Of a DNA stretch of 64,000 bases, positions 55,255 to 58,694 are shown in pieces. The stretch covers positions 2,046,001 to 2,110,000 of the forward strand of contig NZ_CP049303.1 in NCBI RefSeq assembly GCF_019443985.1, given 5' to 3'. A program made the position numbers and the translations under genes. This stretch comes from Liquorilactobacillus hordei DSM 19519. GTDB taxonomy: Bacteria > Bacillota > Bacilli > Lactobacillales > Lactobacillaceae. How positions within the stretch are numbered: the stretch's first letter is position 1; every line of letters begins with the position of its first letter. Under the pieces are notes generated by a model, which was given only the letters and a program-made list of their open reading frames with translations, made no database searches and was not told the origin of the DNA.

Positions 55255-55296
55255 AGAAAAAAGCCGTGGCAAAATTTTTTGTCGTGGCTTTTTTCT
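55255..55296 (+). terminator. Leader terminator (probable attenuator) of the amino acid permease gene
   Basis: AGAAAAAAGCCGTGGC pairs along 16 bases (three G-T wobbles) with GTCGTGGCTTTTTTCT, giving an intrinsic terminator with a U tract. It ends 18 bases before the GTG start and overlaps nothing else, and the upstream gene is divergent, so it stands in the 5' leader of the permease gene. Confidence 0.75.
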
Positions 55297-55314
55297 GTAA
55301 GAGGAGTGTACATA

Positions 55315-56685
55315 GTGAAAAGAAACAACAAAGAATTAAATCGTGCTTTATCTTCGCGTCAAATGCAGATGATCGCACTAGGAGGAACGATTGGAGTTGG
55401 GCTGTTTATGGGATCTTCCGCTACAATCAAGTGGACTGGTCCATCTGTCTTATTAGCGTATGGATTAGCCGGATTAGTGCTATACATAGTAATGCGTGCA
55501 CTAGGAGAAATGCTTTATGTTGACCCTTCAACGGGTTCTTTTGCAAATTATGCTTCGGAATATATTCATCCTCTTGCAGGTTACCTTACTGCTTGGAGTA
55601 ACGTCTTTCAATACCTAGTAGTTGGTATCAGTGAAGTGATCGCTGTTGGCCAATATTTAAATTATTGGTGGCCCAATCTTCCAGACTGGATCTCAGGAAC
55701 AATTGTAATTGTTACACTATGTATTGCAAATCTTGTTTCTGTAAAAGCATATGGAGAACTAGAATTTTGGTTTGCACTGATTAAGGTCTTAACAATTATC
55801 TTTATGCTAATTTTGGGAGCCCTCGTAATCCTATTAGGTTTAGGAAATAACTGGCATCCACTTGGCTTTTCTAATTTATGGTCTCACGGTGGCTTTTTTA
55901 CAGGTGGATTTAAAGGATTTATCTTCGCGCTTTCAATAGTAATTGCCTCCTATCAAGGGGTTGAAGTCATTGGAATTACTGCAGGTGAAGCTAAGAATCC
56001 CCAAGTCACAGTTATTAAGTCAATTAAGTCGATTGTTGCCCGCATCTTATTATTTTATATTGGTTCAATTTTTATCATTGTCACAATCTATCCATGGAAT
56101 CAGCTTGCTAATGTTGGTTCACCATTTGTCGAAACTTTCTCACGCGTAGGAATTTCAGCCGCTGCAGCCATCATCAATTTTGTGCTTGTAACTGCCGCAA
56201 TGTCTGGTTGCAATTCTGGAATATTCAGCTCAAGTCGAATGCTTTATACCCTTGGTCTAAAAAAAGAAATTAATGATAAGTTCACAAGATTATCTTCCAA
56301 AGGTGTTCCAGTTTTACCAGTTCTCACAATTTCTACAGGGATTTTACTTGGATTATTATTAAATGAAATTTTGCCTTATTTTGTTAAAAGTAGTTCTAAC
56401 ATTTTCGTTTTGGTCTATAGTTCCAGTGTCTTACCTGGAATGGTACCTTGGTTTGTAATCTTATTTAGTCAATTGAAATTCCGTAAAATAAAAAAAAATG
56501 AGTTAACGGATCACCCCTTCAAATTACCGTTATATCCTTTCAGTAGCTACTTCGCAATTTTAGCATTATCTCTAACTTTATTATTTATGTTCTTCAATCC
56601 TGAAACTAGAGTTTCTGTAATTGTTGGTGCAATTTTCTTGATTATTATGTCTTTAATATTTTGGAGGACGCATCGCAATAACTAA
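55315..56685 (+). CDS. AAT/APC-family amino acid permease
   Basis: A 456-residue permease with 12 membrane segments. The AAT-family start RALSSRQMQMIALGGTIGVGLFMGSS is clear, as is EMLYVDPSTGSFANYASEY. Members carry proline, alanine, serine, GABA or aromatic amino acids; specificity not assigned. Start at GTG 55315, 8 bases after GAGGAG; an upstream in-frame ATG (55279) lies in the terminator hairpin. Confidence 0.9.
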   Translation: MKRNNKELNRALSSRQMQMIALGGTIGVGLFMGSSATIKWTGPSVLLAYGLAGLVLYIVMRALGEMLYVDPSTGSFANYASEYIHPLAGYLTAWSNVFQYLVVGISEVIAVGQYLNYWWPNLPDWISGTIVIVTLCIANLVSVKAYGELEFWFALIKVLTIIFMLILGALVILLGLGNNWHPLGFSNLWSHGGFFTGGFKGFIFALSIVIASYQGVEVIGITAGEAKNPQVTVIKSIKSIVARILLFYIGSIFIIVTIYPWNQLANVGSPFVETFSRVGISAAAAIINFVLVTAAMSGCNSGIFSSSRMLYTLGLKKEINDKFTRLSSKGVPVLPVLTISTGILLGLLLNEILPYFVKSSSNIFVLVYSSSVLPGMVPWFVILFSQLKFRKIKKNELTDHPFKLPLYPFSSYFAILALSLTLLFMFFNPETRVSVIVGAIFLIIMSLIFWRTHRNN

Positions 56686-56708
56686 GCCAACTCAAAATCA
56701 GTATAATA

Positions 56709-56746
56709 TTAAAAAAGGGCTGTAGAAAATTCTACAGTCTTTTTAA
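56709..56746. terminator. Terminator between convergent permease and alarmone synthetase genes
   Basis: AAAAAGGGCTGTAGAA pairs with TTCTACAGTCTTTTT. It has T runs on both strands and probably works both ways. Confidence 0.85.
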
Positions 56747-57621
56747 TATAGAAATATAAATTGGCTCTTCCACAAAAAGCCTTGTTGCATTTTAACGCCT
56801 GCTTGATGAACCATTGTTCTCATTTTTTCAGAATCAATTCCTTCAATTACAAGTTCTACCTTTGCTTCATTAGCAACTAACTTCCAAAATTTAATTAATA
56901 ATACCAATGATTCCATACTCAGTGTCTTAAAGGGCACTATTGATAATTTTAATCTTTTTATGTGATTAGTATTTGCTAATACAAATGCCAGTGTATTCAT
57001 CCCCATTCCTACATCATCAAGCGCTATTTCGTATCCCATTTCTTTTATCTTGGATATTCGTTTTATTGTTTCTCCTGTTTCATTAGAAGCGCTTTCAGGA
57101 ATTTGCTCTGGATTCTTAATATTATGTTTATACTTCAATTCATGTTCTAAACTAGCCCAGGAGTCCATGGCAATCGTTCTCAACTGAATCTCTGCATAAT
57201 AATCACCTGGAACATGCCCATTAATATCTGGATATGAAGTATTAAATTTTATAATTAAGTGATAACTTCTATAGCCATTGGGTTTTGACTTTGACACGTA
57301 ATCCTTTTCCTTAATTACATCACACCAGTCTTGTTCCTTTAAAAGACCAACTAATTTGTAAATGTCATCAATAAAGTTGCATACAACTCTAATCCCAATT
57401 GCATCCTTACAATCATTAAGTGCACTTCTAGGGGTCAGATCCAAACCTTTTCGCTGACATTTCTCAATCATACTTTCTTCTTGTTTAACTCTGCCACTTA
57501 GATGTTCGTATAGTTTCTCTTCATCTCGTTTTTCAATTTGATGACTAAGCTCGCTGATTTTGTGCATAATTTCGTTTTTTATTTCTGGAAGATACTTGCC
57601 ATAAGCACCATATATTTCCAT
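56743..57621 (-). CDS. Small (p)ppGpp synthetase fused to a partial EAL domain
   Basis: The N-terminal ~175 residues (numbered from ATG 57621) form a RelQ-like RelA/SpoT synthetase: GRVKQEESMIEKCQRKG at 43-59, Asp73 before IGIRVV, KPNGYRSYHLI at 113-123 and AEIQLRTIAMDSWASLEHE at 143-161, all catalytic motifs kept. Residues ~181-285 match the second half of an EAL (c-di-GMP phosphodiesterase) domain: MGYEIALDDVGMG, ELVIEGIDSEK and MQQGFLWK. The EAL motif itself and the first half are missing, and the K-x-D motif reads KLS, so the EAL part cannot be catalytic. ATG 57621 has AAGGA upstream; an in-frame TTG at 57666 is less likely. The synthetase half is secure; the EAL assignment is by motif reading. 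Confidence 0.8.
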   Translation of the reverse strand: MEIYGAYGKYLPEIKNEIMHKISELSHQIEKRDEEKLYEHLSGRVKQEESMIEKCQRKGLDLTPRSALNDCKDAIGIRVVCNFIDDIYKLVGLLKEQDWCDVIKEKDYVSKSKPNGYRSYHLIIKFNTSYPDINGHVPGDYYAEIQLRTIAMDSWASLEHELKYKHNIKNPEQIPESASNETGETIKRISKIKEMGYEIALDDVGMGMNTLAFVLANTNHIKRLKLSIVPFKTLSMESLVLLIKFWKLVANEAKVELVIEGIDSEKMRTMVHQAGVKMQQGFLWKSQFIFLY

Positions 57622-57797
57622 ATTGTTCATTCCTTCAACTGCTAATTTGATATTTTCACTTCGCAAAATTAAGAATTGATTTTTCCATACTGTCTTATAT
57701 TCTTAAAATAACACACAAATATTAAGTAAATATGGATAAAATTTGAAAAAGATCTTTAATTATTATTTTTCTTACTTCTTTATTGATATTAAAATTA

Positions 57798-58694
57798 TTA
57801 TTTCATACTAGCCGCCATCTTGATAGCCGTTGTAATATCATGTGCGTTTAACTGATATATCACATTGTTTTGCTGCCACATAATTAATTGATTACGACTA
57901 CCATATGAACTATTCACATCCGCTTTAATTACCCCATATTGCGAAGGTGCTGGTAATCTGTAGGACTCTAGCATATTCACTATTTGAACGGCCAAAGTCT
58001 TAGGATCTTGTTGATTGACAGCCGTTGCATGGACTGTTAACGACCAATTTCCTTCATACCACGAAAGATATCTCTGCCCTGCGCCTGCATCTTTATACCC
58101 TGTTATGTTGTGCCCTAAATCTATGGTAGGCAAACCATTTAAATCATTTTGTTTAATATAATCAATTTGCGCACTCGCTTCACTTGAAGTTCCATATGAT
58201 GTTTTTTTAAACTGAACATAAGGAATTTCTTTTGATACTGCTTCATCATTTAATTGATACGCGGTATTCCCCACACTATAACTGATTGTATAATTAGCTT
58301 GATTTCCTTCATAGCGCACATTTAATTTATTGCTCCCATTTTCTAACCCATCAGTAGTTGGTAAGATAACATTTCCTAGAGCATTACGTAGTTGCTGATT
58401 AAAAACACTCAACCTAGTTACCGTAGATGAATTGTTGCTATTAGATGCAGTTGAATTTGATGTTGTCGTACTCGAGCTAGTCAGTCCTTGACTAGAAGAT
58501 GTTGATGTTGACTCAACAGCAGAACTTTTTTCACTGCTGCTCTTTTGTGAAGATTTAGAGTGCTTTTTTACTGAAGTCTGCTCTGAAGTTGCTTTTTTAC
58601 TAGAATTTGCTGCTTGCTTTTGACCTCCACATGCAGTTAGTAAGCCTGCCATCAATATTGTTAATAATAAAGCTGTCTTTTTCCCCTTTTTCAT
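57798..58694 (-). CDS. Lipoprotein of unknown function
   Basis: A 298-residue protein with a lipoprotein signal (KKTALLLTILMAGLLTACGG, lipidated Cys22), a Ser/Thr/Lys-rich linker of about 75 residues, and a C-terminal domain of about 200 residues repeating short segments such as VRYEGNQANYTISYSVGN. Not recognised beyond that. Single gene. Confidence 0.85.
   Translation of the reverse strand: MKKGKKTALLLTILMAGLLTACGGQKQAANSSKKATSEQTSVKKHSKSSQKSSSEKSSAVESTSTSSSQGLTSSSTTTSNSTASNSNNSSTVTRLSVFNQQLRNALGNVILPTTDGLENGSNKLNVRYEGNQANYTISYSVGNTAYQLNDEAVSKEIPYVQFKKTSYGTSSEASAQIDYIKQNDLNGLPTIDLGHNITGYKDAGAGQRYLSWYEGNWSLTVHATAVNQQDPKTLAVQIVNMLESYRLPAPSQYGVIKADVNSSYGSRNQLIMWQQNNVIYQLNAHDITTAIKMAASMK

Follow-up and report, generated by a model that had tools for sequence, protein, structure and literature searches.

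The relPRS operon of Streptococcus mutans, in the account given in PMC4963387, carries relP together with response-regulator and kinase genes. In solved chains, helices alpha5 and alpha6 are described as forming the lateral tetramer interface (PMC5794853). A small alarmone synthetase can also share a chain with another enzyme: RelZ of Mycobacterium smegmatis, as presented in PMC7591505, consists of RNase HII and a synthetase, both working domains. Here, a locus of Liquorilactobacillus hordei DSM 19519 is described in which the catalytic core of relP is followed, in one frame, by the second half of an EAL-domain gene. This frame is very probably a natural deletion chimera of relPRS and the EAL gene, likely impaired and best regarded as a decaying remnant.

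Results

The window (the whole stretch of 64,000 nucleotides that was analysed) contains a single unbroken frame on the minus strand that runs from an ATG at 57621 to a stop codon at 56745-56743 and comprises 292 codons, as the first-pass annotation had stated. The relP'-'EAL frame itself was confirmed. An alternative TTG start at 57666 would add 15 residues, to give 307 codons in total; given that the L. mali RelP (P0003) and the alleles P0001 and P0125 (see below) all begin at MEIYG, the ATG is the likelier start. The features of the locus are as follows.

57798..58694, minus strand: upstream flank, lipoprotein-like gene, syntenic with L. mali and UCMA15818
56743..57621, minus strand: chimeric frame relP'-'EAL, 292 codons plus stop (ORF reading)
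57100..57621, minus strand: relP part, residues 1-174, catalytic core (PF04607; identity to the RelP of relatives; conserved columns)
57100..57110, minus strand: junction repeat CAGAGCAAAT(T), 10-11 bp (sequence comparison with relatives)
56746..57108, minus strand: EAL part, residues 172-292 (PF00563; identity with P0007 residues 119-239)
56720..56737, minus strand: terminator-like hairpin directly 3' of the stop codon (pattern scan)
55279..56685, plus strand: downstream flank, amino-acid permease gene, syntenic with L. mali

Both domains proposed at first pass exceeded their Pfam cut-offs in a profile check of the fusion. PF04607 (RelA_SpoT) gave an E value of 1.1e-30 and 106.6 bits against a cut-off of 27, and PF00563 (EAL) gave 1.8e-11 and 44.3 bits against 31.3. 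The relP part retains DAIGIRVVC, KDYVSKSKPNGYRSYH and EIQLRT, and the EAL motifs named earlier, DDVGMG, IEGID and MQQGF, were located at residues 202, 259 and 278, respectively. The EAL half had been placed at residues 176-292; it is indeed found there, with its true start at residue 172 (EQIPES), ahead of DDVGMG. A pattern scan of 56600-57900 returned two terminator-like hairpins compared with a mean of 0.6 in shuffled sequence, of which the second, at 56781-56763, falls within the chimeric frame.

The synthetase part had been called RelQ-like, and this assignment was replaced. The solved structures nearest to the fusion were those of YwaC (6fgk, E = 4.8e-33; 6ewz, 9.9e-31), compared with 1.8e-25 for the best YjbM/RelQ chain. 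A profile search of the whole genome gave three RelA_SpoT matches: the chimeric frame, a RelQ-like ORF of 211 aa that is separate from the chimera and precedes an NAD-kinase-like ORF, and, elsewhere in the genome, a long Rel of 747 aa. Given that the nearest structures are RelP/YwaC and that a separate RelQ-like ORF is present, the chimeric frame is the relP locus and not relQ. The relP part is 81-83% identical to the RelP proteins of L. mali and UCMA15818.

Conservation was assessed against 162 RelP homologues of 198-240 aa, taken from 176 non-EAL proteins. Of the columns conserved at ≥95%, the core encoded in the window keeps all 52, and of the 63 conserved at 90% it keeps 62; P0002 and P0003 likewise keep all 52 of the former. 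Amino acid identity over the core was 83-86% between the window and L. mali/UCMA15818 and 84% between those two; for the relP dN/dS ratio, dS was saturated between the window and its relatives. This undiverged core would fit a recent deletion or remaining use, two cases that the data do not separate.

By contrast with the core, the RelP tail is lost. Its 29 columns had a mean majority of 0.80 in the same homologues, against 0.70 for the part that is kept. In alignment, the tail of intact L. mali RelP corresponds to the C-terminal ends of solved RelP and RelQ chains; by sequence, helices alpha5/alpha6 of the homotetramer are missing from the fusion, in which the tail is replaced after residue 174. 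Given that the lost tail corresponds to the tetramer-forming helices, a normal RelP tetramer is unlikely for the fusion; its active-site motifs are present.

Residues 172-292 of the fusion match residues 119-239 of P0007 at 121 of 121 positions; P0007 is an uncut EAL protein of 239 aa that its source names Liquorilactobacillus hordei. On the strength of P0007, the species of the window would be L. hordei or one very close to it. The genome gave no GH70 match, in agreement with the L. hordei type strain, in which a dextransucrase gene is lacking according to PMC7555045, although this does not prove the strain. The first half of the domain had been reported missing at first pass, and in agreement the PF00563 match was confined to profile positions 122-233 of 236 and residues 1-118 of P0007 are absent. 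The loss of both K-x-D catalytic residues was upheld in part: the lysine is present (KLS, residue 225), and the aspartate is replaced by serine, so that the motif reads K-x-S. The serine occurs in all five aligned EAL proteins, P0007 included; thus, this change is not due to truncation. The DD, K, E and Q positions of the second half are kept. Residues E36, N88 and E116 of P0007, the metal ligands of the EAL/EVL, N and E-x-T-E motifs, lie inside the deleted part, and three of the four EAL metal-ligand motifs are absent from the fusion. Given the position of the EVL, N and E metal-site motifs in the deleted half, together with K-x-S for K-x-D, phosphodiesterase activity of the fusion is not expected.

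For the EAL half, comparison of the window with L. mali gave dN/dS ratios of 0.28-0.29 and comparison with UCMA15818 gave 0.19; between L. mali and UCMA15818 the ratio was 0.15-0.17. On these figures, constraint seems weaker in the lineage of the window. They say nothing on the fusion; given that the half is identical to uncut P0007, its protein changes predate the deletion. Outside the window, the same genome contains two GGDEF genes and a complete EAL gene within 16 kb (G000:C3:1216622-1232336), so the strain keeps c-di-GMP-type genes apart from the fused half.

The locus was compared with its counterparts in L. mali KCTC 3596 (L021) and Lactobacillus sp. UCMA15818 (L023). In both, a lipoprotein-like gene is followed by relP, genes for a response regulator and a histidine kinase, a resolvase gene in reverse orientation and, last, the EAL gene. 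The next gene in L021 encodes an amino-acid permease and is also reversed; in L023, two further genes lie between the EAL and permease genes. The latter ORFs (L023 1264-2897), which we take to resemble a DUF916/WxL-type surface-protein pair, indicate that the locus is variable beyond the deletion. The reversed gene between relS and the EAL gene (L021 5206-5853; L023 3952-4638) was recognized by eye as resolvase/invertase-like. It is a possible mobile remnant and may have brought the EAL gene beside relPRS.

Aligned by blastn, the window and L021 are 78% identical over the part that ends with the relP core and 80% identical from a point within the EAL gene onward. Positions 3159-6613 of L021 had no blastn match in the window, and only their last ~50 bases answer to an unaligned stretch at the window's junction. 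The missing stretch, its two ends and the genes lost with it were observed. L. mali ATCC 27304 (L022) was compared by alignment and motif only. Among the DNA compared, there was no uncut locus from the same species.

Orthologues of relP were found in 10 of 14 genus genomes besides the window's genome, at 59-83% identity. Three of these (G008, G009 and G013) showed stop codons inside the match. The stops were taken to lie upstream of the relP genes, given that the query carried 15 extra residues, that the matches begin before MEIYG and that the open frames are of 209 aa. Orthologues of relR (69-100% identity, the query's own genome included) were present in the same 10 genomes, no more than ~100 bases from the relP match. 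The search of the whole genome of the window's strain gave no orthologue of either relR or relS, with best matches of 40 and 30%, respectively. Neither relP nor relR was detected in G001, G005 or G011, the last a poor assembly of 400 contigs, so relPRS was lost more than once, or never gained, in these lineages. A full P0007-like EAL gene near relP was observed in three of the 14 genomes (G006, 61%; G007, 62%; G012, 50%).

Sequence comparison placed the crossover inside CAGAGCAAAT(T), at window positions 57110-57100, where relP codons 172-174 are joined to the middle of the EAL gene. The junction reads AATATTAAGAATCCAGAGCAAATTCCTGAAAGC in the window, with AATATTAAGAATCCAGAGCAAATCGGC in relP of UCMA15818 and AAATAACAGAGCAGATTCCTGAT in the EAL gene of L. 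mali. The first 10 bases of the repeat occur in relP of UCMA15818, and L. mali has the same or close versions in both its relP and EAL genes, with the copies 3412 bp apart in L021 and 3409 bp apart in L022. From this arrangement, we infer that the deletion arose by slippage or recombination at the repeat. Both copies encode EQI, and the phase is the same in relP as in the EAL gene, which puts the join in frame with no need for selection. The number of 10-base words common to relP and a 700-base stretch of the EAL gene was 1, 2 and 3 in three relatives, compared with 1.4-1.7 in base-composition shuffles; a repeat of this length is thus what chance supplies.

Two shortened proteins related to the fusion were observed. 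P0001 (289 aa) has the same junction as the window, three substitutions (residues 96, 178 and 214) and lacks TLS. In P0125 (136 aa), RelP residue 103 is joined to EGIDSEK of the EAL tail, which leaves 156 residues fewer than in the window's frame; the difference amounts to the in-frame loss of 468 bases between two TGTAATT copies. P0125 lacks the KDY...YRSYH and EIQLRT synthetase motifs and shares the residue-96 change with P0001. It may derive from the fusion or from an uncut locus. The allele set (uncut EAL protein, fusion, loss of three residues and loss of 156 residues) suggests ongoing stepwise decay of a small alarmone synthetase. That all three alleles are in frame was considered as a sign of selection and set aside, given the identical phase of the repeats and the fact that protein searches largely miss frameshifted alleles.

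The search for the same fusion in other Lactobacillaceae that had been proposed at first pass covered 397 family genomes, drawn evenly from a larger group and scored for up to five candidates each. A match at an E value of 1e-35 or better was obtained in 53 of the 397, and one match spanning both parts was found in the window's genome only. In a large protein collection, searches of which rely on a length window and shared words and could miss distant fusions, the fusion as query returned 6118 proteins; among the best 120 of these, P0001 alone has both domains. With P0007 as query, seven proteins were returned, itself included, two of which were fusion alleles. The 99 proteins returned with P0125 included no further allele of the lineage and no intact RelP closer than 79%. 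A separate cluster of intact L. hordei RelP was not found in the searches with the fusion (best 120 of 6118), P0007 or P0125, and such proteins may hide in the P0001 cluster. A plasmid search gave no match. Among the titles listed by literature searches, none named Liquorilactobacillus in combination with c-di-GMP and, judged by title, none was related to fusion of an alarmone synthetase with an EAL domain.

Discussion

The data are best explained by an ancestral locus that would have had the order relP, relR, relS, reversed resolvase, EAL gene, as is still the case in L. mali. Two 10-11 bp repeat copies, one close to the relP 3' terminus and the other halfway along the EAL gene, would then have been the sites of recombination or slippage that removed ~3.4 kb. 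The segment lost comprises the relP 3' end, the EAL gene up to its middle and, between them, relR, relS and the resolvase gene. The product keeps the RelP catalytic core and has lost the C-terminal helices of the tetramer, the RelRS pair and a complete EAL domain. Such a remnant would most likely make little alarmone, if any, and turn over no c-di-GMP, with Rel and RelQ carrying on alarmone synthesis in the cell. On these grounds we infer a loss of function. A relic of gene fusion was among the options offered in the first-pass annotation, beside nucleotide binding and oligomer contacts, and it is the one supported here: the relatives keep separate relP and EAL genes, and ~3.4 kb is gone from the window. 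Separate genes in relatives with a deletion in this strain alone had also been envisaged; the former was largely borne out, and the deletion is not confined to this strain, fused-type alleles being known in P0001 and P0125.

Several features run against an impaired remnant, namely the lack of erosion in the core, the in-frame state of all three known alleles and the presence of the fusion in more than one allele, which implies that it escaped immediate purging. With its synthetase core intact, the chimera may retain residual activity. That the chimera is a working (p)ppGpp synthetase of altered assembly, freed from RelRS control and engaged in deregulated alarmone synthesis, is nonetheless improbable. 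The complete catalytic core, the terminator-like hairpin after the stop codon and the persistence of the fusion in more than one allele would suit such an enzyme; against it stand the high conservation of the lost tail, which is the counterpart of the tetramer-forming helices, and P0125, whose lack of active-site motifs indicates that at least one strain manages without activity of the locus. A little less probable again is the specific case in which the translated chimera still makes (p)ppGpp in an oligomeric state changed by the half EAL barrel and free of RelRS control. If true, natural strains would differ in their basal alarmone level.

An EAL half that serves as a functional c-di-GMP sensor and controls the synthetase, in a true alarmone/c-di-GMP hub, is very improbable. 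A PF00563 score above cut-off, the retained DD, K, E and Q positions and the two GGDEF genes and further EAL gene of the genome could be read in its favour. Half of the domain is gone, however, together with the EVL, N and first-E motifs; no such fusion occurs in the other 396 family genomes searched; the frame would have originated by deletion at a repeat of chance-supplied length; and the other alleles lose more of the EAL half. A designed c-di-GMP-controlled synthetase was rejected on the half domain and on the lack of a counterpart in those 396 genomes, and nothing in the analysis supports the link between the two nucleotide systems that had been suggested at first pass. An assembly artefact, for which it could be said that only one genome has the fusion read as DNA, is scarcely credible and was rejected on the second allele, P0001, which carries the same junction with its own differences, the more so as the whole genome yielded no orthologue of relR or relS.

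With the natural deletion chimera as the preferred reading, the tempting notion of a protein of two second messengers is corrected to a natural deletion of the relPRS operon. The need for the RelP tail can be put to a natural test with the allele set, and the locus illustrates that listings of domain architecture can present deletion scars as new fusions.

In comparison with known systems, the genus relatives resemble S. mutans in that a response-regulator gene comes after relP (in 10 of 14 genomes), and the kinase gene is also present at the L. mali and UCMA15818 loci, the two for which ORFs were listed. The window differs in having no relR or relS orthologue; adjacent relRS genes are not a feature of all RelP. 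With RelP (SAS2, YwaC), the window's frame shares the synthetase core, with its RelA_SpoT domain and catalytic motifs, and lacks the last 29 residues. With EAL-domain phosphodiesterases (PF00563), it shares a second half that is letter for letter that of intact P0007; it lacks the first 118 residues and thus a complete EAL domain, and it has K-x-S instead of K-x-D, as do the intact relatives. Like RelZ, the chimera joins a small alarmone synthetase to part of a second enzyme within a single chain. RelZ, by contrast, has two working domains, whereas in the chimera both domains are cut, and two complete enzyme domains are not present.
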